DNA of 48,591 nt from positions 1 through 48,591 of the IMG/VR virus record IMGVR_UViG_3300034018_001336; one strand, 5' to 3'. The position numbers and the translations under genes were made by a program. This document shows, piece after piece, positions 6,356 to 34,024 of this stretch (position 1 is its first letter; every line of letters starts with the position of its first letter). The stretch comes from a virus. The notes beneath the pieces were generated by a model. The model saw nothing but the letters and a program-made list of their open reading frames with translations. It did no database searches and was not told the DNA's origin.

Positions 6356-6394
6356 CCTTGGTGAGAGGCCTTGGTGAGAGGCTTTAGTGAGAGG
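6356..6394. repeat. Three 13-bp tandem repeats before the 6342 gene
   Basis: CCTTGGTGAGAGG at 6356-6368 and 6369-6381 is followed by a variant CTTTAGTGAGAGG at 6382-6394. On the minus-strand mRNA each unit reads CCTCTCACCAAGG and the array ends next to the AAGGAAAGGA ribosome-binding stretch, so the CCUCU parts could pair with it. AGGCTGCCAGCA also occurs twice nearby. Confidence 0.85.
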
Positions 6395-8290: not shown

Positions 8291-8462
8291 CGCGTTTCTT
8301 GGAGGACTCGATCGCACGATCATGCTCGCACCGCAAGACATGGTCCTCGATCGCAATGATCAGCACCGCAGTTTTCGTCCGGCGGGCTCGAATCGCCTCA
8401 TCTTCCAGCATCTGGGCCACCTCAATCGGCAACCGGTAGCTCACTCGAATCGTGTTACTCAT
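8268..8462 (-). CDS. Ribbon-helix-helix (CopG/Arc type) transcription regulator
   Basis: 64 residues. MSNTIRVSYRLPIEVAQMLE gives the DNA-binding beta strand and first helix; RRTKTAVLIIAIEDHV gives the turn and second helix, the standard pattern of CopG/Arc dimers. The last 20 residues are basic. The ATG at 8462 lies seven bases after a -10 element, so the mRNA should be leaderless. The gene is divergent from the helicase operon and a perfect palindrome (8485-8498) sits between them, so it likely represses its own gene and/or the helicase operon. Confidence 0.75.
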   Translation of the reverse strand: MSNTIRVSYRLPIEVAQMLEDEAIRARRTKTAVLIIAIEDHVLRCEHDRAIESSKKRVDTRKSR

Positions 8463-13849: not shown

Positions 13850-14068
13850 ATGAAACTCCTGTACACCATCCTCGACAGCGCCGGCCCCACGACCTACCAC
13901 GGCGGCCGCGCAGCTGCAGCGCTCGATGTTATCCACCGCCTGAACGGCACTGGCCCCCGCAGCCTGACAGGCTCCGAGATCGTCGCAGCGCTTACCAGGT
14001 CCTCCCGTGTTTGGATCCTCACTGAGTCCGGCCGGGAGATCTCCGTTGACTGGCAGGAGCTCGAATGA
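13850..14068 (+). CDS. Small hypothetical protein
   Basis: 72 residues from ATG 13850, four bases after the previous stop. Sequence MKLLYTILDSAGPTTYHGGR and a final VDWQELE look like a small alpha/beta fold. Its stop is followed by the first double-hairpin element. Function unknown. Confidence 0.65.
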   Translation: MKLLYTILDSAGPTTYHGGRAAAALDVIHRLNGTGPRSLTGSEIVAALTRSSRVWILTESGREISVDWQELE

Positions 14069-14130
14069 CCCGGCGAGCTCATCCGTTGGGTGAGCTCTGC
14101 GGATCAGTCGATCCACATAACTACAAGCAC
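14069..14130 (+). promoter_or_regulatory. Double-hairpin intercistronic leader, copy 1
   Basis: 62 bases between genes. Hairpin 1: GAGCTCATCC (14075-14084) with GGGTGAGCTC (14088-14097), 3-base loop. Hairpin 2: GGATC (14101-14105) with GATCC (14110-14114), 4-base loop. An A-rich stretch without SD leads to the ATG at 14131. Copy 2 at 14599-14664 keeps both stems with compensatory changes. May control translation, RNA processing or protein binding. Confidence 0.75.
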
Positions 14131-14598
14131 ATGAAAACCAACTACGGAGAATTCCGGGTTCTTTCGATCCGAGAGACAGCGCCAACCTTCCAAGCCGACA
14201 ACCCGGGCCTCATGGCTACTTACTGGCGCGAGCAGATTGCAACCAGCCCGCACTTCGACTCCGACAAGGAAACAATGGTCGTCGTGCTGATGAATACCCG
14301 GATGCGGATCATTGGTCACGCCGTGGTCGCGGTCGGTGTGGTGGACCAGGTGCTTTGCCATGCTCGCGAGGTTTTCCGGCCGGCAATCATCGGAGCAGCG
14401 AAGACCGTCGTGTTGATGCACAATCATCCCAGCGGTGATGCATCCCCATCGGATTCTGACATCCGGATCACGCGACAGATGGCGGAGGCGGGAAAGATCC
14501 TTCAGATCGAGGTAACGGACCACGTAATCATGGGACAGAAGACGGACATCAGTCGTGGGTTTACGTCGCTGCGGGAGCTTGGATTGATCGGACGCTGA
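14131..14598 (+). CDS. JAB/MPN (RadC-type) metalloprotease-fold protein
   Basis: 155 residues. The JAMM motif is complete: an upstream Glu (KETMVVVLMNTR region), HNHPSGD near residue 97-103, then a Ser and Asp (SPSDSD), with VTDHVIMG near the C-terminus as in RadC. The HTH domain of full RadC is absent, as in many phage and plasmid RadC-like proteins. The biochemical role of RadC proteins is not settled; some JAB domains are peptidases. Start at 14131 was chosen because the upstream stretch is a conserved hairpin element, not protein. Confidence 0.85.
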   Translation: MKTNYGEFRVLSIRETAPTFQADNPGLMATYWREQIATSPHFDSDKETMVVVLMNTRMRIIGHAVVAVGVVDQVLCHAREVFRPAIIGAAKTVVLMHNHPSGDASPSDSDIRITRQMAEAGKILQIEVTDHVIMGQKTDISRGFTSLRELGLIGR

Positions 14599-14664
14599 CC
14601 CACCCGGCGAGCCTATCCACTGGGTAGGTTCTGCGGATCGGTTTGATCCATACAAAAAAACACC
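14599..14664 (+). promoter_or_regulatory. Double-hairpin intercistronic leader, copy 2
   Basis: 66 bases. Hairpin 1: GAGCCTATCC (14609-14618) with GGGTAGGTTC (14622-14631). Hairpin 2: GGATC (14635-14639) with GATCC (14645-14649). TCTGCGGATC is shared with copy 1. Two stem pairs differ from copy 1 on both sides (T-A to C-G and C-G to T-A), so pairing is conserved while sequence changes. A run of seven A precedes CACC and the ATG at 14665; no SD. Confidence 0.75.
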
Positions 14665-15096
14665 ATGAAACTACAAGACGCAGTCAAAGCGGCTCGGGTC
14701 CGAAAAGGACCGGCTACAGGCATAGACGACACTGGCGAATTTTGGGTCATTCCAGAGCCGCCATTGATTGGGATCCACGGAGGTGACGGGGTCGGGAATA
14801 ACGCCAGCCACCGGAAGGCGTTCCTTCACTTGCGCCACTACCGGAGCGGACACGTTGAAGCCGTCGTCCGAATCGCCAGCTGGCACCAGAACGCAGGGGA
14901 GTCTAGCAACTACGTGAACGTGTCAGGGATCTTGGGTGCCATGACGGTGGCCGAAGTGATCTCCGGATTGCTCGCCCGTGAAGTGGAAACCTGCTGGGAG
15001 TTTCTCGATGCGCGCCGAACGGACGACCTGACCAAGTGGCTCGGTGGCCTCGGGATTCCGGCTACAGCCCCCAGCCCTGACGAGGAGGTACTGTGA
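14665..15096 (+). CDS. Hypothetical protein
   Basis: 143 residues, not recognised. Contains FWVIPEPPLIGIHGGDGVG, a His-rich KAFLHLRHYRSGH stretch and a C-terminal helical region (FLDARRTDDLTKWLGGLG). Preceded by a hairpin leader; its stop overlaps the next start (GTGA). Confidence 0.65.
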   Translation: MKLQDAVKAARVRKGPATGIDDTGEFWVIPEPPLIGIHGGDGVGNNASHRKAFLHLRHYRSGHVEAVVRIASWHQNAGESSNYVNVSGILGAMTVAEVISGLLAREVETCWEFLDARRTDDLTKWLGGLGIPATAPSPDEEVL

Positions 15097-15446
15097 GTTG
15101 GTTTATCCTATCCAACCAAAACGGCGCTGAGATCAGCCGCCACCGCACCCTGGTCCGCGCAGTCGAAGCCCAGGAGGCATTCGGGCATCCGTCCACGATC
15201 ACCGGCACGGAGCCGATTGATCTAAACGATCTGTCGATCGCAGCCGAGATCCTCCAAGCATCCCGGGAGCGCCGAGGGTTTGAGTTGAGGAATTACTTCC
15301 ACGGGCTGCGTTTGGGAACCTATGCGACCCGGGAGGCTGCTGAAGCCGCTCTGGCTGAACAGGTTGAGATGAACCCAGCAAACCGGATTAACTGCGGGGT
15401 TGAACCCGTCCGGCAGGAACCCGTCCGGCAGGAGGTGGCCCGATGA
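15093..15446 (+). CDS. Hypothetical protein with a duplicated PVRQE tail
   Basis: 117 residues from a GTG that overlaps the previous stop. Central helices (LSIAAEILQASRERR; TREAAEAALAEQVE). A 15-base tandem duplication at 15402-15431 (GAACCCGTCCGGCAG twice) repeats PVRQE near the C-terminus, a recent in-frame slippage event. Function unknown. Confidence 0.6.
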   Translation: MSWFILSNQNGAEISRHRTLVRAVEAQEAFGHPSTITGTEPIDLNDLSIAAEILQASRERRGFELRNYFHGLRLGTYATREAAEAALAEQVEMNPANRINCGVEPVRQEPVRQEVAR

Positions 15447-15847
15447 AAACTGAGATCCTCGAAGCCCTGGCGCGTTTCATCGGCCAGCGGTCCGGAATCG
15501 ACGGCTCGATTTACGGGAGCCGGGAGACGTTCCTGGGGGATTACCGCCAGATCCTGCGAGACGGGCGGGATGCCCGCGCCTTGCTGCGAGCGGTGGAGTT
15601 GTCGAAGGGTCTGTCTGAGTCCATCCTGGTTGACGTCCTGAAATCCGGCCGACTCACCTGGGACGGAAGCCGGCTGGATTACTGCGCTGGCCAATACTTC
15701 CCGACCGAGTATCGCGCCGCAGCCTGTCGGGCGCTGGCGTCGGCGCTGTGGAATTACTGGCGGACCGAATCCGGTGGTGGCTGCAGAATCCGAGCCGAGG
15801 CAAAACTGAGGTTTGGTCGAGGGATCACCAGCCGCTGGTTCAACTGA
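15443..15847 (+). CDS. Conserved phage hypothetical protein with a DYCAGQYFPTEYR motif
   Basis: 134 residues. LTWDGSRLDYCAGQYFPTEY followed by RAAACRALASALW is a pattern I recognise from small early phage proteins of many GC-rich phages; their function is not known. The C-terminus ends GRGITSRWFN. Start overlaps the previous stop (ATGA). A double-hairpin gap follows. Confidence 0.7.
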   Translation: MKTEILEALARFIGQRSGIDGSIYGSRETFLGDYRQILRDGRDARALLRAVELSKGLSESILVDVLKSGRLTWDGSRLDYCAGQYFPTEYRAAACRALASALWNYWRTESGGGCRIRAEAKLRFGRGITSRWFN

Positions 15848-15909
15848 TTAGAGCACGGCCGGCCTTGCGGGGCCTGCCTTCTCTGGCCAGAAGCGCCGGA
15901 AACAAAAAT
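15848..15909 (+). promoter_or_regulatory. Possible third double-hairpin leader
   Basis: A 62-base gap, the same length as copy 1, with two adjacent stems (GGC/GCC plus GGCC/GGCC at about 15858-15877; CTTCT/AGAAG at about 15878-15893), then GGAAACAAAAAT and the ATG, no SD. Sequence similarity to copies 1 and 2 is not clear, so kinship rests on length and architecture. Confidence 0.4.
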
Positions 15910-16173
15910 ATGAGCACACCAACACCCGGACCCTACCCCCTCAAAATCACACAGGTTGACGAACTGATCGTCGTTGTCACGAATCAGGGTAACCTCTTTG
16001 CGAACACCTTCGACCCTGCTGCTGCTCGTTTGATTGCGGCCGCGCCTGAGTTGCTGGAGGCTCTCCAAGCGGCCTTGGTCGCCGTCCGATACCTCGATGA
16101 TCACGAAGGCGCTGAGGAGCTTATGAAGCAGGTGTGCGAGGCGATTATCAAGGCCAAGGGAGGTGTGAAGTGA
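15910..16173 (+). CDS. Small phage protein with AARLIAAAPELLEAL motif
   Basis: 87 residues. AARLIAAAPELLEALQAAL is a motif common to small phage proteins of unknown function. The first 35 residues look beta-rich and the last 30 helical. The preceding ATG-like frames run into the hairpin gap and were not used. Stop overlaps the next GTG. Confidence 0.7.
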   Translation: MSTPTPGPYPLKITQVDELIVVVTNQGNLFANTFDPAAARLIAAAPELLEALQAALVAVRYLDDHEGAEELMKQVCEAIIKAKGGVK

Positions 16174-16388: not shown

Positions 16389-16621
16389 CTGACCTAACGA
16401 TCGAACGAGGCCGGGGCGCGACCTACGCCAGCGACCGCTGGACTGTCTACGAGCACGGCACCTACGGCCGTGACAGCGTGCTGTCTGGCCAGAGCCGCCG
16501 CACCTGGTTGGATGACTTCGACACGCTGGAAGAGGCTGTGATCGCCTACCCAGATGCGGTCGTGTGCGCTTGCTCGACATACCAGCCGCCGCACCTCGGG
16601 CACCTTCGGGATGAAGATTGA
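16385..16621 (+). CDS. Small conserved phage protein
   Basis: 78 residues, GTG start overlapping the previous stop. The pattern RWTVYEHGTYGRDSVLSGQ and FDTLEEAVIAYPDAVV is one I recall from many small phage proteins of unknown function. Ends with an acidic DED. Confidence 0.7.
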   Translation: MTDLTIERGRGATYASDRWTVYEHGTYGRDSVLSGQSRRTWLDDFDTLEEAVIAYPDAVVCACSTYQPPHLGHLRDED

Positions 16622-16719
16622 CCACGCGAACCGCTTACCGTATAAACCCCTCCGCTAGGCCCGGGTGGGGCCGATACTGCCCAACCAGGGGCGCGACTGG
16701 TCAACGCGCACGACTCCCA
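16622..16719 (+). promoter_or_regulatory. Structured gap before the endolysin gene
   Basis: 98 bases with hairpins GGCCC/GGGCC (about 16659-16673) and ACCAG/CTGGT (about 16683-16700), then the endolysin ATG without an SD. The layout resembles the other structured gaps in this operon, but the sequence is not clearly related. Confidence 0.35.
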
Positions 16720-17094
16720 ATGAAAGCTGAACTACTTGCCGCACTGATCGCCGTGGAATCCGGCGGGAACGACATGGCCCGGGGACGCCGTGGGGAGCTT
16801 GGCGCTCTCCAGGTGCGTCCCTGTGTCGTAAAGGACGTGAACCGGATCGCAGGCACGCACTACCGATGGGCCGAGATGACTAACCGATGGGCCGCGTTGG
16901 GGGTGTTCAGAATTTACACGGGGCACTATTGCACCGAGACCCGGCTGGGTCGGCCGGTGACGAATCAGGACCTGGCGCGTGTCTGGCACGGTGGCCCGAG
17001 CGGATGGAAGCGATCGAAGACGGTGGCATATTGGAGGCGGGTGCGGGCTCGGATGGGTGCTCCCCTGGTAGGTGGCACCGATCCGCGCCAGTAA
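16720..17094 (+). CDS. Endolysin, lytic-transglycosylase-like
   Basis: 124 residues. AVESGGND carries the catalytic Glu of the lysozyme/SLT fold; then GELGALQV, VNRIAGTHYRW, the Tyr-containing YTGHYCTETR and ARVWHGGPSGWKRSKTVAYW, the usual order in small phage transglycosylase-type endolysins. It has no signal peptide or membrane segment, so it needs the holin encoded 14 kb away at 2727-2909. Its place in the operon of early-looking small genes, not in the lysis cluster, is odd. An upstream start at 16618 would translate through the structured gap and gives an unlikely N-terminus. Confidence 0.8.
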   Translation: MKAELLAALIAVESGGNDMARGRRGELGALQVRPCVVKDVNRIAGTHYRWAEMTNRWAALGVFRIYTGHYCTETRLGRPVTNQDLARVWHGGPSGWKRSKTVAYWRRVRARMGAPLVGGTDPRQ

Positions 17095-20163: not shown

Positions 20164-20360
20164 CGTCCCTCCAACCATTTTTCGAGGTCATGGAGTTCAT
20201 CCACTTTGGCTTCGAGTTCTTTGATCCGCTGGTTGGCTTCGTTGAGTTCGCGTTCGAGTTGGCGAGCGAATTTGTAAGCGTAATACAAATCTTGGTGTCC
20301 GAAGTTTGAAATTCCAATACCATCGTATTCTAACTCATCCGTCCTCGGTGTATCGCTCAC
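20160..20360 (-). CDS. MSDTPRTD-type coiled-coil protein, paralog 1
   Basis: 66 residues from a GTG that overlaps the previous stop. MSDTPRTDELEYDG is a common start of small phage proteins; ARQLERELNEANQRIKELEA is a coiled coil. Related to the genes at 20656-21087 and 21084-21305. Function unknown. Confidence 0.7.
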   Translation of the reverse strand: MSDTPRTDELEYDGIGISNFGHQDLYYAYKFARQLERELNEANQRIKELEAKVDELHDLEKWLEGR

Positions 20361-20659
20361 GGCTTCACCTCCTTCTCATTCCACAGCAACAAGTCAGCGC
20401 GGAGAGCGTCGTTCTCCTCCTCCAGCCGCTTAATGCGCTCACGAGCTTCATCACGCTGCTTTGTCAGTAGTTGATTTTCACGAGTCTTACATGCCATAGA
20501 TTGTTCTGCCCGTTTCCATTGATTGTCAGCCAATTCAGTGTCGTAAACTGTCCTGCATTCGTAGGTAGCGAATCCGCAGTTATCAGACCTCAGCAGGTTG
20601 CCGCCATGAACCATGATCGGCGATTCGCAGAACGGGCATTTGTCTGGTACGGTTTTCAC
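20357..20659 (-). CDS. Zinc-finger plus coiled-coil protein
   Basis: 100 residues from a GTG overlapping the previous stop. KCPFCESPIMVHG and a later NCGFATYEC give four Cys for zinc; the second half is a coiled coil with RIKRLEEENDALRADLLL. It resembles phage restriction-alleviation-type small zinc proteins (Lar-like) in its CPFC start, but the match is partial. The RIKRLEE coil is shared with its neighbours. Confidence 0.65.
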   Translation of the reverse strand: MKTVPDKCPFCESPIMVHGGNLLRSDNCGFATYECRTVYDTELADNQWKRAEQSMACKTRENQLLTKQRDEARERIKRLEEENDALRADLLLWNEKEVKP

Positions 20660-21087
20660 GGCTTGGCCTCCCCCAAATAAACAACCTGCGACGGGTAGAG
20701 CCACCTAATGTCAACACCGTGCCACTCTCGGTTTTCGGATTGGCCGCTGTGCTGTGCTATTGGATTGAGGCAGGCAATCCACTCCTCCAGCCGCTTGATG
20801 CGCTCGCCCCTGTCCTCGTACAACGCAACGTCCGCAACCAGCGCGGCATGCTTGTTCTTCGCGTCCATTAGATCCTCCTCCAGCCGCTTGATGCGGTTTT
20901 GTAACCGCAGGTTTTCTTCATCCAGCAATTGCTGCTGCCGGATGATTGCGTTGGATGCGTGGAGTTCGCGTTCGAGCTGGCGGCTCCAATCCAAAACTTC
21001 ATCGACTGATGTTGGATCAAACTCCAATTCGGTGTCCGTCCTCGGTGTATCGCTGACCATTTTGTTGGTGTCACCAATATGATTCAC
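20656..21087 (-). CDS. MSDTPRTD-type coiled-coil protein, paralog 2
   Basis: 143 residues from the GTG at 21087 (GTGA overlap); an ATG at 21060 would start exactly at MVSDTPRTD. SRQLERELHASNAIIRQQQL and RLQNRIKRLEED form coiled coils; a C-terminal part contains EWHGVDIRWLYPSQVV. Shares RQQQLLDEENLR with the next paralog. Confidence 0.65.
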   Translation of the reverse strand: MNHIGDTNKMVSDTPRTDTELEFDPTSVDEVLDWSRQLERELHASNAIIRQQQLLDEENLRLQNRIKRLEEDLMDAKNKHAALVADVALYEDRGERIKRLEEWIACLNPIAQHSGQSENREWHGVDIRWLYPSQVVYLGEAKP

Positions 21088-21305
21088 GGCTTGTCCTCCT
21101 TGGCTTTGTACCATTTATCAATTTGTACCAACTTGCTCTCCAACCGCTTGATGTGGTCTTGAATCCGCAGGTTCTCCTCATCCAACAATTGCTGCTGACG
21201 GATGATTGAGTTTGCCGCGTTGAGTTGGCGTTCGATCCTCCTGCACAGCATGCCGAGTTCGGCCACGTTGTGAGGTGTTGAGTCGGAGATAGGGGTATCG
21301 CTCAT
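21084..21305 (-). CDS. MSDTPRTD-type coiled-coil protein, paralog 3
   Basis: 73 residues: MSDTPISDSTPHNVAELG, then RRIERQLNAANSIIRQQQLL and HIKRLESK. The middle is nearly the same as paralog 2, showing tandem duplication. Ends overlapped with the next gene. Confidence 0.7.
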   Translation of the reverse strand: MSDTPISDSTPHNVAELGMLCRRIERQLNAANSIIRQQQLLDEENLRIQDHIKRLESKLVQIDKWYKAKEDKP

Positions 21306-24700: not shown

Positions 24701-27700
24701 TTATCGAATTCCCACAGCTTTTTTCGCTTTTGCGTTCGCGATGTCTTCGATCCGGTCCAGCTGCCGTTTGGTGGCGGTTTGAGGATCCAGCTGCGAAATG
24801 CGGGTCTTGAGTTCGACTGCGCGAACCTCCTGCATCCTGGTCAACTCTTCCGGCGTGGCCTGCCGTTGCACGCGGCCGAACTGGAAGAACTTGTTGTTCT
24901 GCGGAGTGGCCGGCGTCCATCCAGTCTTGGCTAGCACCTGGTAGGCGCGGTCAGGATCTTCGCCACCAACGATTGCGGTGCCGCCGGTGAGGATCGACAT
25001 GATGCGCTCCTGGGCACGCGGCGTACCCACCGGATCCCCGAGGAAATTCCGATCGACCTTGCCACTCCAGGGCGTCGGGACTAGCAGGTTGATGAACGTC
25101 TGGTCCTTGGGGTTGAACTGCGCGCCGGACATGGCGGCAGCCTCGCGTAGGAGCGGTGCAAACGGAATCAACGGGCTTACTGCACCAGCGGCGATCTTGC
25201 CCATGTCAGGGGTCTGGCGGTACACGCCGGAGCCGATCATACCGGATGCGGTGCGCCCTTGCGCCACAGCGGAGTAAGCGCCGTAAGCCAACGCACCACC
25301 TACATCCTTCGCAGTGAGTTCGCGGGGCTCAAACTTCAAGCCCTTCTTTTTGGCAGCAGCCTCGGCCTTCTGGTTCAGGCGGTTGCGCCTGGCGACCTGA
25401 TACTGAAGCTCACCGATCGCAGCCAGTGCCGGCCGTACAACCTGAATCGGCCCGGTGTTCAACGACACGCGCAGGATCTTACCGCCAGGCAGTTCAAGCT
25501 CCATGGTGTTCGGACGGTGGCCTTCACGTTCCCAGAGGTCGGCCTCTTCTTTGTCGTCAGGCCACCTGGTGAAGACTCGCAGTGCGCCTGAGAGAACCAG
25601 CGCAGCAAAGGCGCCAGACAGGCCTAACCCGGTCGCAGCCTCAATCTTGCGCTGCGCCTTGTCGGTCTCAGTCTTGTACCAAGCAGATCCCTCGAAGGCT
25701 TTCGGCACGAATCCGCCGCCGGCAAACGTGAGGGCACGGTTGATGCCGATCGCAATCGCGTTGGAGAAGCGTCCGACAGGGTTCGGGATGCCAGTCTTCG
25801 CAAGGAAGTCGCTGGCATTCTTCATGCCTTGCCCGATCACGCCACCAAGCCCACCGGTTTCTTCAACGTTCCAACCGATCGTGGAGCGGAGGTCCTGGGT
25901 GAGTTCCTTGAGCGCACCCGTATCAAGCCCGGCCGCTTTGATGCGTTGGTACTGCCGGGCGCGCACGACGTTCCAGGCAGCGGCGCGGCGCTCTTTCGGG
26001 CTAATGTTGGGATCATCACCAACGATTGCTTGAGCCAACGCGTACTCGGCTATCGCATCTCCGATGATAGTCTTGGCGGTCTTACGAGCCTGCTCGGGCG
26101 CCATGCCCTGAAGACGCAGCTGGGACTCGGTCCATGCACCGATCTCCTGCTGTTCAGCCAGGACGCCTTGGAAGGCATCGAGAGATGAAGCGAACCGGAA
26201 CGATAGCTGAGAGATGCCGATCATTCGCACCAGCGCGGACCTGGCGTAGTCGCCGTTCTTGGCGTACTCGCTGGCCTGCGCGTTGATGCGGTCTAGCGCC
26301 CGGATACCGCTCTGGATACCCATGATAGTATCCTTCTCGGCTCGGCCCTTGGCAGCCTCCAGCGCAGACGTGAGGGCCATGTTGAGCGCATTGAAGCGCG
26401 CCTTGTAGGCGTCTTCGAGCGCAGCACTGGTATCCTTCCACAGTCGGCTTGCGCGGTTTGGATCGCGACTGGTGCGGTATCGCTCTACGGCCGTCGCTAC
26501 TGCACGCGTCGGCGTGTAGTAGAACATCTGGGTAGCCACGTCGATCAGCTGCTTGGTAACGAAGCTCGGTTTGAACAGCAGTTGTGCCGAAGTCACCTCA
26601 TTGATCGCTCGCGCCAGGTTCTGCTTGTTGCCACGGATCGGCATGGTCATACGCGCCCAGCGCATCTGGATCTCGCGCATAATGTCTGCCCGCCTTCCAA
26701 GGTTCTTCGCGGCCTTGATGTCGTCCGTGATACCTTTGCTGATTTCCTCTTCGGTGGCCGTGCTGAGTTCCTGTTCCAGGCGCGCCAGGTCTCGGAGGCG
26801 TGAAACCTCCTCATCGGTAGGCACCTTCCATCCAGCCTTCTTCGCAATGCTTTGCAGGAGCACCGCCGAGTTCATGCCACCTGCGTTCACGAATTCCTCG
26901 ATCTTCTGCCACAGGGGCCGGCCCGGGCCGGCTTCCTCACGCTGCTTCGGCGTGAGCTTTTGTACCGCCAGGTCGAGCGCACGAATGCGCGCCCGCTCGA
27001 ACTTCGCCTGGAACGCCTTGGCCAGCGCAACGCCAGTCTTGTCGGCCAGCGCCTGGTCGATCGCCAGTTCTACCAGCAACGCTTCCGAGAACGCTTGAGC
27101 CAGCTTGGTTTGCCCGGCCTGCGGGGTGTTCAGTACCCGCTTCACCAGGTCGCTCATCTTGGGAACCAACCGCTGCAACGCGGGGTTCTTGGCGACGCTC
27201 TCTGCAATCCGCTGGTCCAGCAGGCCAGCGCGGATACCGCCAGCGAGGCGCTCAACAGCCTTGGCTCGATCAGCTTCCAGCTGCGCGTCGGTCTTCGGCT
27301 GAGCCGGATCGAAGCTAACGTCCTTAGCGCCCACGATCTGAGAGACCACGGCGTTCTCGGCCTCCATCATCCGCTCGGTGAGGTAGGTCCAGACAGCGCC
27401 CTGCATCCACTCATCGGCCAGCTTCTCAGCTGCCGTGATCTGATTCAGCTTGCCGGTAAGGAACGCGAGCTTCTCGGCCCGAGTCCTGGTTGCCATGCCG
27501 GAAAGCTCATCGGCCGTCAGGTAGGTCTTGGCGACACGCTTCAGGAGGTCGCGAGTCTTCTGGGAGCGGTAGCGCGGGTCCTCAGTGATGCCGGCGTTTA
27601 TCAACCGCTGGAGACGGTCGCTCGCAGTCGTGGGACCAGTCTTGGCCTTCACGTCCAGGAAGCTGTTCAGCACGCGCTGGCGGGCCAGTTGCACCTGGGA

Positions 27701-30700
27701 ACCCACGTTAGCCGTGATCATCTGCATCACGCGGGCCTTGGCTTCCGGAGACGCTCCAGCCAGGTCCATGACGCGTTCGATAGCAGCCAGCTGCTCGCCG
27801 ATCACGCGGCTCATCTCAGCGTTGGGTTGTTGAACCAGGCGCGCCAGGTCGATCTTAGCAGGCTCCGGCGGGGCGACCTTCTTCGGCCCGAACTGAGTTC
27901 CCTTGAAGCGCCCACGGATTACGTCCTGGGCGAGCTTCAGGGTAGTCGGCGAGTAGTTCAGGAACCCATCACGAATCGTGCGCCAGTGAGCGTACTGCGG
28001 CAGGTCGAGACCTTTCTCGATCGCCTCTGGATCCGGATCCTCGCCAGCTGCCATGGCGTCACGGTACTGCCCGAGGAGTTCTTCGTTGCCAGCGGCGTCG
28101 GCCATCATCACTCGCCATCCGGCGTTGAACTCAGCTTCCTTCACCGCATCCTCGGTGGCCTTCTGCACCTTGGCCTGCGTCGCCGGGCGGGTCATCAGGG
28201 CCAACCGTTCGTCAGGTGTGAGCTTGCGGTTCGCGGGCTTGGCGGGCTCGGTGACTCCAAGCGCCAGAGCGTTCTCAATGATCTGCTCGATGGCTTCATC
28301 CTCAAGAGCGCGTTGCTCCTTCGCCTTCTGGGTGGGCGCCTTCTTGGTCTTGAGGCGCGCCTGGACAGCGCGGTAAACGCGGCCGCCAGTGTCAGCCAGC
28401 GCCAGGACTCCAAACCGGTTCAGCATCTCCTGGAGGTCAGGCTTCTCGCCAACGATCTTCTGGATCTCTGCTTCAGTGAACTGGCCACGGAACTCGGTCA
28501 TGATCTTGTCGAGCACCCCTTTGACGCTCTCGCCATTAAAGTTGTCGTAGATGGCCGATGTCAGGAATCCACGCACATTACGGGCTAGGGCCACGAAGTC
28601 CTTCACCGAGGCTTTCAAGCTCGCCAGGTTACGGCCGAACTCAGACGCCTCAGACTGACCGATCAGGTAGAGTTCATCGCGGGTCTCGGGGCTGAACGCC
28701 TCGGAGATTCCGAAGTGGTTCCGCAGTGAATTGATCAACTCTGCGACGGTATCACTGCGTCCTTCAGCCTTAGCCTTGGCGATCTTGTCCTTAGCGACAC
28801 GGACCAACTCCCGTCCAGCCGCCTCCTGGTCCACTCCATCAACAGGAGCGAACAGGTTGTCGGCTACTTGCCGGAACTTCACGCCCGCTTCGTTGAACGT
28901 CTCGACTGCCAGCTGGATGCCAGCATTGCGAACTTCAGGGGTGAGCGCCCGGCGTCCAGCCACAACATCCTCAAACCCACCACGCTTGGTCGTGATCGGT
29001 TCGCTGGGCGTGCTGTAAATCATGCCGAAGTCGGTAGTCGCACGCTCGGGCATGGTGGCTACATCAGCGATAACCTCTGGCGTGGGTTCAACCGTTGCTC
29101 CCTGAGCGCGGTCCCAGGCGTACTGCAATGCCGGGCTGAGCTTCAGGCGCAGGCTGGTCGCCCACTGAGATGCGCTCTGGATGCCAGCGCGGATCGCGAC
29201 GGAGGCAAGCTTGGTGAGGGCTTCAAGAACGCGACGTGCAGACTCCTCGGGCGTCGGGCCTTCGGTGATGCCAGCCTTAGGAGTGATGGACTCAACGAAC
29301 TGGGCGATGGCGTCAGAGGCTTCGGCGGCGGCGTCACTGAGATCCATCTGGGTCTGCGCCTTCTCTTGGGCGGCCTTAGCTTCCGCAGCAGCGCGGGCAG
29401 CGGCTTGGGCCTTCTGCTTGCGGGCTTCGATATCCACACCTTCTTCGCCGACCAGGGCGAATGGCTCGGCCTGTGTGCTGGAGATCAGGTCGCCTTGCGT
29501 TTCTCCAGCTGCGAGGCGGGGCTTGCGCTCGGGGGCAGCCGGTGCAGCGGCCGGAGTGTACGCGTCGATGTTGATGCTGATACCGTCAGGGAGATTGATC
29601 TGACCGTAGGTTTCTCCGCCGTCAGCGGTCGCATCCATGGTATCCGGATCGACAGCGGTGATCGTGAGTTCTGAGCCACCAACAGTGATCTTGTCGCCTA
29701 CCGCCAGGTTGCTGGTGTTGACCGCAACCGGGCCGCCTTCTTGGATGGCAGCGTCAAACGCCTGGATCTTCCGGTCCTGCTGAACCTTGGCCGCAAGCTC
29801 CCGCATCTGGGGAAGCAGGGCAGCGCGATCGGCCTCCGAGTTTTGTTCAGGGTTTCCTCCAAGCTGTTGGATAGCGCGCTTCTTGACGGTAGCGAGCGCC
29901 TTCTGGCGGGCCATCTTCGCGGCGATCGAACCTTTGTCTTGGATGTTTCCAGAAAACACCGGACTCAGAAGCGCAGGATCCTCGATCAGCCCGAGGTCAG
30001 GCGCGATGTCGGTCGCCAGTCGGTCGAACTCCTGGGCGTCTTGGCGCACCTGGGAGACTTTACGCTCAGGCTTGGCGGCAGGCGCGGTAACAACCGGCGC
30101 AGCTGGGGGCGTAGGCGGCTGCTCTTGTTTGATCAGGTCCTGCTTGTCAGCCTGATCAGCATTGGCTTCTGAAAACGAATCATCCTCAAAGTTCCAGTTC
30201 TGGATGCTGGCGGCCGTCGTCGGAAGCTCTCCGTGAACGATCGCACCCATGTCGGCCATGCGAGACCCAACCCGCTGAGCTAGTTGCCGATCGAACGGGA
30301 TGTTGTCAGCAAAGAGCCACTGCATCTGCGCGGTGCCTTTCAGGCCGTACCGGGCGGAACGCAGTGATACCTGCTCAACCTGGGTGGCGGTCCACGGCAG
30401 GTTGACGTTGATCTGGGTCGTCGGGTGATTTCCGGTCTTGTCGTGTAGTGATAGGCCGGTGCCTCCCTTGGCCATGGTGGCGACCAGGACCATCGGCTTA
30501 TTGCCACGCCACCGATCGAGGTTCTTCTGGGCCTTAGCGGGCGTGACTGAACCAGTGAAGATCGCGACATTGTCCTCGCCGAACTTCGCCTTCACGGCGT
30601 CTTCAGCGGACGGAATCTCGATCACCGATATGCCGGTCTCCTCCATGAACGACGCCAGTACGTCGGTGATCCCCATCGGTGGGAGCCCGAATTCCGATCG

Positions 30701-33700
30701 GCTCGGGCCGCGCTCATTCATTCGGCGCGCCAGGTCCATCTCTCGGCGCCACTGGTCTTCAAGATCGAGCAACCTCGGGATGTCGATCTTCCGCTCCGCC
30801 TTGGTCTCAACAAAGATGATCGGCCAGCGCCCAGCCTTGAGTGCGTTGTTGGCTTCGTTGATAGCGATGTCGATCTTGGACGCCTCCAGGATGCGCTTCT
30901 GGAAATTCTTGATCCATGCCTTGGAGAATCCTGCGAGGGCGCTCTTGTTTTCTTCGACAGCGTTCTCGAACGCCTTGTAGATCCGGGTGTACTCCTCGTT
31001 CGCTTGGACCTTGACTAGGCGTGAATCCACCTGGTTCTGAGGAAGGCGTGTTTTGCGGGCCGTGAAAATGCCCTCCTTCTTGAAGAAGTTCCGAGCGGCA
31101 ACCTGGTCGGCGTCGCTGGTGTTGGTGCGCTTCCAAACCAGAAGCGTGCCGTTTTCGGTCTTCACCGGTGTGGCACCGTAGGCCAGGGCAAAGTCTTTGA
31201 ATCCGTTGAACGGATCGAAGATTCGTGTGTTCGCTAGATACGCCGCCTGAACCGGGTTCTCGAACGGGGTTGCCGTCGAGAGCACTGGGAACTTGGTCTT
31301 CAGGATCCATTCCTGGCCCTTCTTGGCCTGCTCAGAACCTTCACCGGACAAGTTCTTGATCGCGTGCGCTTCGTCGAAGATCAGCACGTCAGACGCCTCT
31401 GCGGGGCGATCCTTCATCTCCGCGTAGGTGATGAAGTTCACGTCGCCGATGTCGTAGTCCTTTAGGTCCTGCTTGATCTGGGTGATTAACTCCTTACGCA
31501 GCGTGACGTAGGTGATCTTCTTGGCGCCCGAGCGGCGAAGCTCTCGGATCGCCGCGCCCAACACGAACGTCTTACCCGTGCCCGGGGCGCTGGAGAGCAT
31601 GAAGAGTGGACGGCCTTGGCGATACGCTTGGACCATCAGTGCCACGTCTTCGATCTGCTCGTCGATCACGACGCTGGGGATGCCGAAGGCCTCCCCTTGG
31701 CGCATCAGCTGTTGGGTATCTTCACCGACATAGTTCCCAACACCTCCATCAAGTCCGCTTCGGTCGGGCCGGTTGTCAGCATCCGATCGGAGTTTTCGGA
31801 GGCTAGAATCGGAGACGTAAGCTGGTCGGCCACTTGTTGGTCCGACAGCAGCTGTTGCAGCAGGTCGCGCTCGCTCGATGAACTTCCCAAGCCCGTCGGG
31901 AGAGATCCTCCAGGAGCGGTCGGCTGCCGCATACCGGCCTCCGAACTCATTGATGTCGTTGCGCCAGTCGAAGGTACGTCCGGATAACGCAATCTTGCCG
32001 TCTTTCTGGACAGTTGCGGTGATGCCAAGGTTTTTGAGGAGAGCTTGGTTTTCATCGGAAATGGTTGCGGCGGGTGCTGGGGCGGGTGCGGGTGCCGGGG
32101 TGGGTGTCGGAGCGGCAGCTGGAGTTTGGGTGACGGTGACCGCACCTGGGGTTAGGACGACAGCGCGAGCGGGCGCAGGCGTTTGGGCAACCACACCTGG
32201 AGCCGAAACTACAGCGGGAGTGGATTTCTGTCGCAGCCGCGCAATGATCGTGTTCGGGGTGTCGCTTCCAGTGACGGTGACCCCGTTTTCGTTGGCAATG
32301 CGCTCCAAGTTTGCTGTGACGGACATTGGAACTCCGCCGGCATCGACCTTCGCGAGAAGATCAACCGCTTCCTGTGTAATTGGACCTGACTCAACCGGTT
32401 GACTCGGTTTCTGGGCCGTAGGTTCTGTCGCTGCGGCCGGCATCTCAGCCGCCACCGCAGCCACCCCCGGCTTAGTCCATCCAGTCGTTTCATCGAACTC
32501 AAACCCAGCCTGCTCCAGCTGGCGAACCCGTCCGGCGAGTTCCTCGAAGCGAATCAGCTGCTCATCGTTCAGGATGTCGTACACCGACCCACCTTGGGCT
32601 GCATCGAGGGTATCGTTGTACTCCTGCGTCTCCTCAATGGTCAGCGGCTGGACTTCCGCTTGGGCTTCGGCCCCTGCTCCTTCGGTAATCCGCCCTCTTT
32701 GATCCACTTCTGGCAGTCCCACTTCGACTTCGGGTTGCGGCTCTTCTCCGCGAAGCAGGCCTTCATCTGTGATTTGTTCTTGAACGGCATCTGGTGTGGC
32801 AGTTGGGGTTTCGGTAGGCGCGGCTTCTTCTTCAAGGACCATCTCCGGCAAAACGATCTCTTCTTCAGGCGGTACAACATTCGCGCCTGGAGGAGTGACA
32901 CGGAAAGGCCCAGACGGAGCGCCGCCGGAGTTGATGCCAGCGAGGGTGGCAGTGGCGTTGGGGAGCGGAATGTTAGGATCGCCACCGATAGCAGCGACGC
33001 CAGCTGCTTGGCGGTCGATGATCTCCTGAAGACGTTGCCCTCCAGGTGCAGGTCCTTCGACGAGGCGTTGCTCCTGGATCTGGGCCATTCTGCGGCCGCG
33101 AGCCAGCTTCCCGAACCCTCCAATGGTTCCGCCAACCAGAGCGCCAACACCGCCCCCAACGGTTCCAGACTCGTACAAGCCTTCTCCAATTTGCTGCTCC
33201 GGATTGTAAACCTCCTTGGCAACTAGGTTGCTCAACAGCTGTTCGGATGTTTCCTGCGCCGCTTCCTCAAGCCCGGTTCGGAGAGTCTCACGGACAACGC
33301 GTTTCCCGGCCTGGCCCGTAAAGGCGCGACCGAGTGCGGGCACGGCTCCAATAGCTCGCTCCGTGAGCGCTCCGATAGGCGCGGTGTAAATGACGGCCTG
33401 GGCCTGCTTGACAGGTTTCTCCGCCCTAAGGCGATCGGCTTCAGCCGCGTCACCTTTAGCTAACGCATCAGCGATACGCACGTCGTAGAGTTGGCCGGCA
33501 CGTTGCGCCTGGTCTTCGCCAGCGCTGAATCCGTATGTGAGCGGCCCAACTCCAGGGATCGCCGATACAGGAAGCGATCCGATGCCGCTCGCCAGTTGGG
33601 TGAGATAATCATCCTGGCGTAGGGGGTTAATCGGAAACGCTTCCTCTGCTCCACGTTGGAGCGCCTGACCCATCTGGAAGGTAGGGCTGGCTTCCAGTTC

Positions 33701-34024
33701 AGCCGCCCGCGCCTGGAGAACCTCGGGTGGCACTTCCCTCGTTCGCTTCTGCCAATCAGCAAGCCTGCGTTCGTAGGCTGCCATTCCGGCGGGGCTCTCC
33801 GCTTGGGCAGCGGTCATCACCGGGGGCGGCTCTTCGAGGCCTGCACGCGTCAGACCCATCATCGCACCGCCGACCATGCGGCCACCTTCCCGCATCAGCG
33901 CGGATCCAGCGGCGGGTAGGGCGCCTTGTCGAAGGGTTTGCGAGAACTCCAGTAGTTGGTTTTCGCCGATCCGGTCATCAACCTCAACCAGACCGACCCC
34001 TTCGATGTCAACGATGCGTGGCAT
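24701..34024 (-). CDS. Giant polyvalent ejection protein with SF2 helicase domain
   Basis: 3107 residues. Residues 1-340: amphipathic helices and Gly-rich, membrane-active-looking stretches (GSLPVSAIPGVGPLTYG; GGGVGALVGGTIGG). About 345-700: Pro/Ala/Thr-rich linkers. About 770-1330: SF2 (Snf2-like) helicase with APGTGKT near 815, DEAH near 883, STATPFENP, and motif VI SLRSARYG near 1222. About 1400-2400: helical. C-terminal 700 residues: hydrophobic and helical, resembling domains associated with large polyvalent phage proteins (AGIPNPVGRF-like region). It lies last after two smaller internal proteins, like T7 gp16, so it is likely packaged in the virion and injected with DNA, where the helicase acts. 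No lysozyme or peptidase active site was recognised. Confidence 0.75.
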   Translation of the reverse strand: MPRIVDIEGVGLVEVDDRIGENQLLEFSQTLRQGALPAAGSALMREGGRMVGGAMMGLTRAGLEEPPPVMTAAQAESPAGMAAYERRLADWQKRTREVPPEVLQARAAELEASPTFQMGQALQRGAEEAFPINPLRQDDYLTQLASGIGSLPVSAIPGVGPLTYGFSAGEDQAQRAGQLYDVRIADALAKGDAAEADRLRAEKPVKQAQAVIYTAPIGALTERAIGAVPALGRAFTGQAGKRVVRETLRTGLEEAAQETSEQLLSNLVAKEVYNPEQQIGEGLYESGTVGGGVGALVGGTIGGFGKLARGRRMAQIQEQRLVEGPAPGGQRLQEIIDRQAAGVAAIGGDPNIPLPNATATLAGINSGGAPSGPFRVTPPGANVVPPEEEIVLPEMVLEEEAAPTETPTATPDAVQEQITDEGLLRGEEPQPEVEVGLPEVDQRGRITEGAGAEAQAEVQPLTIEETQEYNDTLDAAQGGSVYDILNDEQLIRFEELAGRVRQLEQAGFEFDETTGWTKPGVAAVAAEMPAAATEPTAQKPSQPVESGPITQEAVDLLAKVDAGGVPMSVTANLERIANENGVTVTGSDTPNTIIARLRQKSTPAVVSAPGVVAQTPAPARAVVLTPGAVTVTQTPAAAPTPTPAPAPAPAPAATISDENQALLKNLGITATVQKDGKIALSGRTFDWRNDINEFGGRYAAADRSWRISPDGLGKFIERARPAATAAVGPTSGRPAYVSDSSLRKLRSDADNRPDRSGLDGGVGNYVGEDTQQLMRQGEAFGIPSVVIDEQIEDVALMVQAYRQGRPLFMLSSAPGTGKTFVLGAAIRELRRSGAKKITYVTLRKELITQIKQDLKDYDIGDVNFITYAEMKDRPAEASDVLIFDEAHAIKNLSGEGSEQAKKGQEWILKTKFPVLSTATPFENPVQAAYLANTRIFDPFNGFKDFALAYGATPVKTENGTLLVWKRTNTSDADQVAARNFFKKEGIFTARKTRLPQNQVDSRLVKVQANEEYTRIYKAFENAVEENKSALAGFSKAWIKNFQKRILEASKIDIAINEANNALKAGRWPIIFVETKAERKIDIPRLLDLEDQWRREMDLARRMNERGPSRSEFGLPPMGITDVLASFMEETGISVIEIPSAEDAVKAKFGEDNVAIFTGSVTPAKAQKNLDRWRGNKPMVLVATMAKGGTGLSLHDKTGNHPTTQINVNLPWTATQVEQVSLRSARYGLKGTAQMQWLFADNIPFDRQLAQRVGSRMADMGAIVHGELPTTAASIQNWNFEDDSFSEANADQADKQDLIKQEQPPTPPAAPVVTAPAAKPERKVSQVRQDAQEFDRLATDIAPDLGLIEDPALLSPVFSGNIQDKGSIAAKMARQKALATVKKRAIQQLGGNPEQNSEADRAALLPQMRELAAKVQQDRKIQAFDAAIQEGGPVAVNTSNLAVGDKITVGGSELTITAVDPDTMDATADGGETYGQINLPDGISINIDAYTPAAAPAAPERKPRLAAGETQGDLISSTQAEPFALVGEEGVDIEARKQKAQAAARAAAEAKAAQEKAQTQMDLSDAAAEASDAIAQFVESITPKAGITEGPTPEESARRVLEALTKLASVAIRAGIQSASQWATSLRLKLSPALQYAWDRAQGATVEPTPEVIADVATMPERATTDFGMIYSTPSEPITTKRGGFEDVVAGRRALTPEVRNAGIQLAVETFNEAGVKFRQVADNLFAPVDGVDQEAAGRELVRVAKDKIAKAKAEGRSDTVAELINSLRNHFGISEAFSPETRDELYLIGQSEASEFGRNLASLKASVKDFVALARNVRGFLTSAIYDNFNGESVKGVLDKIMTEFRGQFTEAEIQKIVGEKPDLQEMLNRFGVLALADTGGRVYRAVQARLKTKKAPTQKAKEQRALEDEAIEQIIENALALGVTEPAKPANRKLTPDERLALMTRPATQAKVQKATEDAVKEAEFNAGWRVMMADAAGNEELLGQYRDAMAAGEDPDPEAIEKGLDLPQYAHWRTIRDGFLNYSPTTLKLAQDVIRGRFKGTQFGPKKVAPPEPAKIDLARLVQQPNAEMSRVIGEQLAAIERVMDLAGASPEAKARVMQMITANVGSQVQLARQRVLNSFLDVKAKTGPTTASDRLQRLINAGITEDPRYRSQKTRDLLKRVAKTYLTADELSGMATRTRAEKLAFLTGKLNQITAAEKLADEWMQGAVWTYLTERMMEAENAVVSQIVGAKDVSFDPAQPKTDAQLEADRAKAVERLAGGIRAGLLDQRIAESVAKNPALQRLVPKMSDLVKRVLNTPQAGQTKLAQAFSEALLVELAIDQALADKTGVALAKAFQAKFERARIRALDLAVQKLTPKQREEAGPGRPLWQKIEEFVNAGGMNSAVLLQSIAKKAGWKVPTDEEVSRLRDLARLEQELSTATEEEISKGITDDIKAAKNLGRRADIMREIQMRWARMTMPIRGNKQNLARAINEVTSAQLLFKPSFVTKQLIDVATQMFYYTPTRAVATAVERYRTSRDPNRASRLWKDTSAALEDAYKARFNALNMALTSALEAAKGRAEKDTIMGIQSGIRALDRINAQASEYAKNGDYARSALVRMIGISQLSFRFASSLDAFQGVLAEQQEIGAWTESQLRLQGMAPEQARKTAKTIIGDAIAEYALAQAIVGDDPNISPKERRAAAWNVVRARQYQRIKAAGLDTGALKELTQDLRSTIGWNVEETGGLGGVIGQGMKNASDFLAKTGIPNPVGRFSNAIAIGINRALTFAGGGFVPKAFEGSAWYKTETDKAQRKIEAATGLGLSGAFAALVLSGALRVFTRWPDDKEEADLWEREGHRPNTMELELPGGKILRVSLNTGPIQVVRPALAAIGELQYQVARRNRLNQKAEAAAKKKGLKFEPRELTAKDVGGALAYGAYSAVAQGRTASGMIGSGVYRQTPDMGKIAAGAVSPLIPFAPLLREAAAMSGAQFNPKDQTFINLLVPTPWSGKVDRNFLGDPVGTPRAQERIMSILTGGTAIVGGEDPDRAYQVLAKTGWTPATPQNNKFFQFGRVQRQATPEELTRMQEVRAVELKTRISQLDPQTATKRQLDRIEDIANAKAKKAVGIR

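Follow-up and report, generated by a model that had tools for sequence, protein, structure and literature searches.

The locus

The stretch of DNA analysed here, called the window throughout, comprises positions 1–48,591 of IMG/VR virus record IMGVR_UViG_3300034018_001336 from an uncultured phage. An earlier note on this DNA had pointed out that the gaps 14069–14130 and 14599–14664, which flank a RadC-like gene, contain several words in common and can each fold into two hairpins; coordinates, words and hairpins were all found as described. The two gaps are homologous (80% identity across 41 nt). ORFs were called mechanically throughout, and the metagenome contigs are possibly incomplete. The features of the region are listed below, the rod being a longer fold discussed further on.

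13850–14068, + strand: upstream small gene (72 aa), its TGA stop (14066–14068) within the 5′ arm of the rod
14061–14111, + strand: element 1, whole rod, with the 5′ arm TCGA-A-TGA-C-CCG-GC at 14061–14074
14075–14097, + strand: element 1, hairpin 1 (10 bp, loop GTT), between the two arms of the rod
14098–14111, + strand: element 1, 3′ arm of the rod, TG-CGG-A-TCA-G-TCGA
14101–14114, + strand: element 1, hairpin 2, GGATC-AGTC-GATCC
14115–14130, + strand: A-rich leader of element 1, without a Shine-Dalgarno (SD)-like word
14131–14598, + strand: RadC-like JAB-domain gene (PF04002, E = 5.6e-33)
14596–14649, + strand: element 2, with the TGA stop at 14596–14598 and hairpin 1 at 14609–14631
14635–14649, + strand: element 2, hairpin 2 (loop GGTTT)
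14650–14664, + strand: A-rich leader of element 2
14665–15096, + strand: downstream gene (143 aa)
15844–15890, + strand: rod 3 (family 2, unrelated sequence), CTGA(stop)TTAGAGCACGGCC...CTCTGGCCAG, before the ATG at 15910
16618–16703 (approximate), + strand: rod 4, unrelated sequence, predicted from a single sequence only

Copy 1 begins directly at the upstream stop codon TGA 14066–14068. Neither the 72-aa gene (13850–14068) nor the 143-aa gene (14665–15096) gave a match in Pfam or PHROG; for the latter one relative was found, in the related contig G006, with 90% identity.

Hairpin 1 is formed by GAGCTCATCC/GGGTGAGCTC in copy 1 and by GAGCCTATCC/GGGTAGGTTC in copy 2. The compensatory swaps that the earlier note had reported are exact: from copy 1 to copy 2, pair 5 changes from T-A to C-G, pair 6 from C-G to T-A and pair 3 from G-C to G-T, such that 10 of 10 pairs are kept. 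The fold energies are −25.5 kcal/mol for copy 1 and −23.1 kcal/mol for copy 2 (z = −3.8 and −3.2, respectively), and the window contains the joint pattern twice, versus 0.00 occurrences expected by chance. A calibrated covariance model finds exactly two class-1 copies in the window; a third was not found with the filters off, the next best match having E = 0.29.

Elsewhere in the window, the − strand carries repeated coding segments at 20200–21250, with a 98-nt direct repeat at 20878 and 21138 (85% identical) and TCACGGCTT gene ends in common, and a single ORF of 3107 aa at 24701–34024.

Relatives of the element

Relatives were sought with patterns over IMG/VR and with a covariance model (R1) in which hairpin 1 alone was paired. 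Such a model search, which the earlier note had proposed as a check, recovered two classes of copies. Together with DNA scans it yielded 21 class-1 copies, spread over 17 related phage contigs of IMG/VR (G000–G016, the window included), with model E-values between 6e-17 and 9e-11; the majority of the records had also gone into the model (copy 1 of G006, for example, had not). Five more distant class-2 copies lie in the same contig set (G008, G009, G011, G012 and G014). There are 1–2 copies per genome. In a scan that required neither TGA nor GATCC, the hairpin-1 matches in non-coding junctions were known members only, all with TGA and all with either GATCC or an alternative hairpin 2. The matches of an early, loose pattern scan of IMG/VR were mostly chance matches in coding sequence.

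Against Rfam 15 the window had no match above the gathering threshold and nothing relevant at E up to 5. A DNA relative was not found in collections of isolated phages or plasmids, and a pattern scan of cellular genome contigs gave no convincing member among the matches listed. Four of the genomes in that scan gave no model match among the 150 candidates scored in each, a result that says little on hosts; a host search via terminase, primase, helicase and RadC returned distant and mixed matches only. The element represents an undescribed RNA hairpin family common to the window and sixteen related phages.

Conservation of hairpin 1

In a 14-copy alignment 96.0% of the cells of hairpin 1 are paired versus 71.9% in shuffles (0 of 500 as high), and both partners differ between copies at 7 of 9 pairs; the sequences are related, so that cell counts overstate independent events, and the shuffle controls ignore kinship. 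In slid versions of the alignment the pairing collapses. The joint change of paired bases shows that evolution has preserved the fold of the element. The earlier note had argued for structural selection from two copies; covariation in the relatives, the rod and the class-2 copies now support it well beyond these two. Two copies per genome could arise through simple duplication, and the hairpins might then be chance palindromes within duplicated intergenic DNA. The relatives, however, contain at least eight distinct hairpin 1 sequences, every one of them paired, and this explanation, which has hardly any credibility, is refuted by the covariation of hairpin 1 together with the relatives found by the model.

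Two competing folds

The two hairpins seen in the earlier note are, according to the predictions, one of two competing folds; the other, the rod, had gone unseen. RNAalifold prefers this long rod, which pairs the 3′ side of TGCGGATC with the bases that precede CCGGC, those of the TGA stop among them. In the lower stem of the rod 83.9% of the cells are paired versus 81.4% in shuffles (0 of 500); its covariation exceeds that of every shuffle, yet rests on two double-changed pairs.

All fold probabilities given here are thermodynamic predictions. For element 1 the predicted pairing of the rod is 0.86/0.85, and when the upstream sequence is masked, hairpin 2 forms with 1.00. In 13 of 15 distinct elements the rod outweighs hairpin 2 or roughly equals it (three being near 50:50). 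In copy 2 of G006 hairpins 1 and 2 are predicted to win over the rod, and window copy 2 favours a third fold, the standard rod having a probability of 0.02–0.06. Masking of the 5′ stop-codon arm, which mimics a ribosome terminating on the stop codon, leads to predicted formation of hairpin 2 in every element, with a probability of 0.99–1.00 in the GATCC type and of about 0.7–1.0 in the other type. Shuffles confined to the 3′ part rarely yield both properties (mean fraction 0.02; the elements are related and the tests non-independent).

Hairpin 2 is invariant across the GATCC type, for which the search patterns partly selected; in L273, L306 and L324, found without the GATCC requirement, it still forms from a different 3′ sequence. 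The class-2 copies keep the GC/UG internal loop of the rod despite a wholly different lower stem, as in G014, where the lower stem is TTTCAAGC/GCTTGGAA and the internal loop is unchanged. Among all the elements, one copy has AG in place of TG in this loop. A GUGACAG loop is kept in the long forms of class 1 and in class 2, the stems differing, and is lacking in the window copies and the G001 type, which have the loops GTT, ACT and CGTG.

Placement between stop and start

The position of the element is strand-locked, the order always being stop codon, element, ATG. A TGA lies within about 9 nt upstream of CCGGC in 21 of 21 class-1 copies, and serves as the in-frame stop in 19 of these; G008 and G011, which are near-identical, have their true stop 14 nt earlier, at an apparent small duplication. 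In the class-2 copy of G014 the stop is further upstream, so that embedding of the stop is not universal. The ATG follows 20–43 nt beyond the 3′ arm in class-1 copies. Between stop and ATG the frame is 0, 1 or 2; the reading frame across the element is therefore unconserved and the element non-coding. Stop-codon readthrough, recoding of the selenocysteine type and fusion are excluded by the same variation of the downstream frame and by in-frame stops in some copies.

The ATGs at 14131 and 14665 are, as the earlier note had stated, preceded by A-rich tails and lack an SD; no SD-like word lies within 22 nt of them. Among 16 element leaders such a word is absent from 14; the other two have GAGGA at −14 and AGGA at −19. 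The suggestion in that note that the element may replace SD-driven initiation is weak in that form: formation of the rod is predicted to make little difference to how open the A-rich start region is (mean unpaired 0.73 with the rod versus 0.77 without it). An intrinsic terminator, consisting of a GC-rich stem and a U-run, was rejected, as A-rich sequence trails the hairpins. No promoter-like or terminator-like site was found at either window element, regional counts being equal to those of shuffles.

The downstream genes belong to several families, and the presence of the element is decoupled from the family of the downstream gene. RadC is joined via the element in the window, G003 and G004 and via an ATGA overlap in G006; gene family 8 is preceded by the element in some phages and by an unrelated rod in others. 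Other junctions of the operon are ATGA overlaps. Comparison of the copies at the sequence level establishes the conserved fold, the strand-locked position between stop and ATG and the occurrence before different genes. The element is best explained as a cis-acting mRNA element at gene junctions of one variable operon in a group of related phages.

Unrelated rods in the same operon

Rod 3, whose basal stem includes the upstream TGA, sits right at the stop of the gene 15443–15847. Its family (CTGANNAGAG...CTCTGNCCAG) comprises twelve distinct versions, in which four pairs have changed on both sides, and is present in at least 12 related phages. In rod 4 the stop TGA 16619–16621 is predicted to lie in the basal stem TTGACCA/TGGTCAA, before the ATG at 16720. 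When all gaps were surveyed, the stop was paired with 0.44 versus 0.38, a small excess in a survey that is noisy because of the mechanical ORF calls; the claim that stops are embedded rests therefore on the named families rather than on every gap.

Comparison with known systems

The early mRNA of phage T7 contains several irregular intercistronic hairpins that are RNase III processing sites, each just before a gene start. The phage elements resemble them in that several irregular hairpins of similar size lie between the cistrons of one operon, before gene starts. An irregular stem of about two helical turns with an internal loop, as in the T7 type, is predicted in most elements, but not in window copy 2. 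The phage elements differ from the T7 sites in their conserved sequence blocks, their embedded stop and their two competing folds, and cleavage is putative here.

Among published systems, the start-associated repeats of mycobacteriophages come closest in position. The SAS and ESAS repeats occur in cluster K mycobacteriophages and cluster EF Microbacterium phages (PMC3203893, PMC7302621). SAS is a 13-bp sequence with an AGGAG core, 3–7 bp before the start codon (PMC3203893); about half of the SAS/ESAS repeats have inverted repeats, and some contain the upstream stop codon (PMC3203893, PMC7302621). Like the elements described here they adjoin the starts of non-structural genes of different families. 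In contrast, the SD core of SAS is absent from the phage elements, RNA pairing is supported here whereas for ESAS the authors found little support for it (PMC3203893), and there are 11–19 copies per genome as compared with 1–2.

The promoter early stem-loops (PeSL) of T4-type phages, consisting of an early promoter and a terminator-like stem-loop (PMC4503421), are likewise conserved stem-loop linkers where genes shuffle, but a promoter or terminator consensus is absent here. The put RNA of HK022, two stem-loops downstream of early promoters that are bound by RNA polymerase (PMC9378689), shares with the element a size of about 70 nt, two stem-loops, two copies per phage and a place in the early operon; the element, however, always lies between stop and start, within the operon and before many different genes. 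ANTAR substrate RNAs, which act as antiterminators, are also small tandem hairpins with alternative pairing; they have hexanucleotide loops with A1 and G4 and overlap a terminator (PMC3369931), whereas the loops in the window are of 3 nt (hairpin 1) and 4–5 nt (hairpin 2) and an overlapping terminator is absent.

Proposed function

We tentatively propose, at somewhat less than an even chance, that the elements are interchangeable mRNA junctions which insulate the next gene through processing of the RNase III type and leave it with an SD-less, A-rich start. In the ground state the junction would be an irregular rod of about 17–20 paired positions with a conserved 5′-GC/UG-3′ internal loop, its base holding the upstream stop codon. 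An enzyme of the RNase III type would cut the rod as at the intercistronic sites of T7 early mRNA, upon which the upstream message would end in a hairpin right at its own stop codon, and the next gene would keep a short, open, A-rich, SD-less leader and thus be expressed as a unit of its own. On reaching the embedded stop, a terminating ribosome would switch the RNA into hairpins 1 and 2, and cutting would thereby be postponed until translation has cleared. Insulation by processing is favoured because unrelated rods of similar size hold equivalent places, as the RNase III sites of T7 do; that these rods also hold the stop codon fits an enzyme reading shape rather than sequence. Against it speak window copy 2 and the G006 relative, which do not favour the standard rod, the embedding of the stop, which is not universal (G008/G011 and class-2 G014), and the strong conservation of TGCGGATC and GATCCA, which a nuclease that reads shape would not require to this extent; part of that conservation reflects selection by the searches.

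The main rival, which we consider unlikely though worth serious attention, is a translation-responsive switch that couples or uncouples adjacent genes in their translation: on arrival at the embedded stop, ribosomes would melt the base of the rod, hairpin 2 would form, and initiation or re-initiation at the next ATG would be altered. The embedding of the stop codon in the rod arm, seen for 19 of the 21 class-1 copies and also for the unrelated rods, the maintenance of two exclusive folds in two divergent 3′ sequence types, and the ATGA overlaps at other junctions of the operon, RadC being found with either, are consistent with such a switch. However, the start region differs little in predicted openness between the two states (0.73 versus 0.77), so that simple unmasking by the upstream ribosome is not predicted, and structure just after an upstream stop was found in a review to correlate negatively with coupling (PMC12548453), which counts against the switch. 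It is rather doubtful that a stop codon built into the base of the intercistronic rod lets the terminating ribosome toggle the two conserved folds and thereby set the processing or the translation of the next cassette, several unrelated rod sequences having converged on this design or diversified within it. Conserved sequence patches on a variable stem and the GUGACAG loop kept across differing stems would also suit recognition by an RNA-binding protein of phage or host, with a regulatory or antiterminating role, whose contacts would be the internal loop, the GUGACA apical loop and the GATCCA segment. This is distinctly unlikely: the window copies and the G001 type are without the GUGACA loop, one copy has AG rather than TG, and no candidate protein was identified. 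We give even less credence to a recombination linker, i.e., conserved junction DNA for the shuffling of cassettes, similar to the PeSLs of T4, with a structure that is incidental or serves recombination. The element does occur before many different genes of one variable operon, decoupled from the downstream family, and it is mosaic, G013 and G016 having the 5′ half in common with different 3′ parts and hairpin 1 being identical between copy 2 of G003 and G015; but covariation and the strand-locked placement between stop and start point to RNA, and homologous recombination needs no compensatory pair changes. Gene shuffling may be a by-product of the junctions.

If insulation by processing is true, compact phage operons can exchange genes by way of standard RNA connectors, which close one gene and open the following one with neither a Shine-Dalgarno sequence nor a promoter. 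The elements, carried by phages that had no isolated relative in the collections covered here, constitute a defined, covariation-backed RNA family with clear testable mutants, and they bear on how genes lacking an SD sequence are started inside operons.

Other features of the related contigs

In L372 (G008) at about 1495–1610, and also in L370, L371 and L373, a second strongly foldable stretch (GGCCTGAGCATGG...CTCAGGCC) follows the class-2 hairpin. It lies upstream of a gene conserved there in the group, resembles a separate structured RNA and is probably non-coding, because near-identical copies differ by single-base indels. Tandem repeats of the CAGGGTTTCAAGACCT type are found directly upstream of the class-2 rod in L376 (G014) at about 1455–1510. 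In L385 (G013) near 6394 and L388 (G016) near 8402 the end of the upstream gene and hairpin 1 are exactly identical, the 3′ part of the element differs and the downstream genes are again homologous, which amounts to a short patch exchange inside the element.
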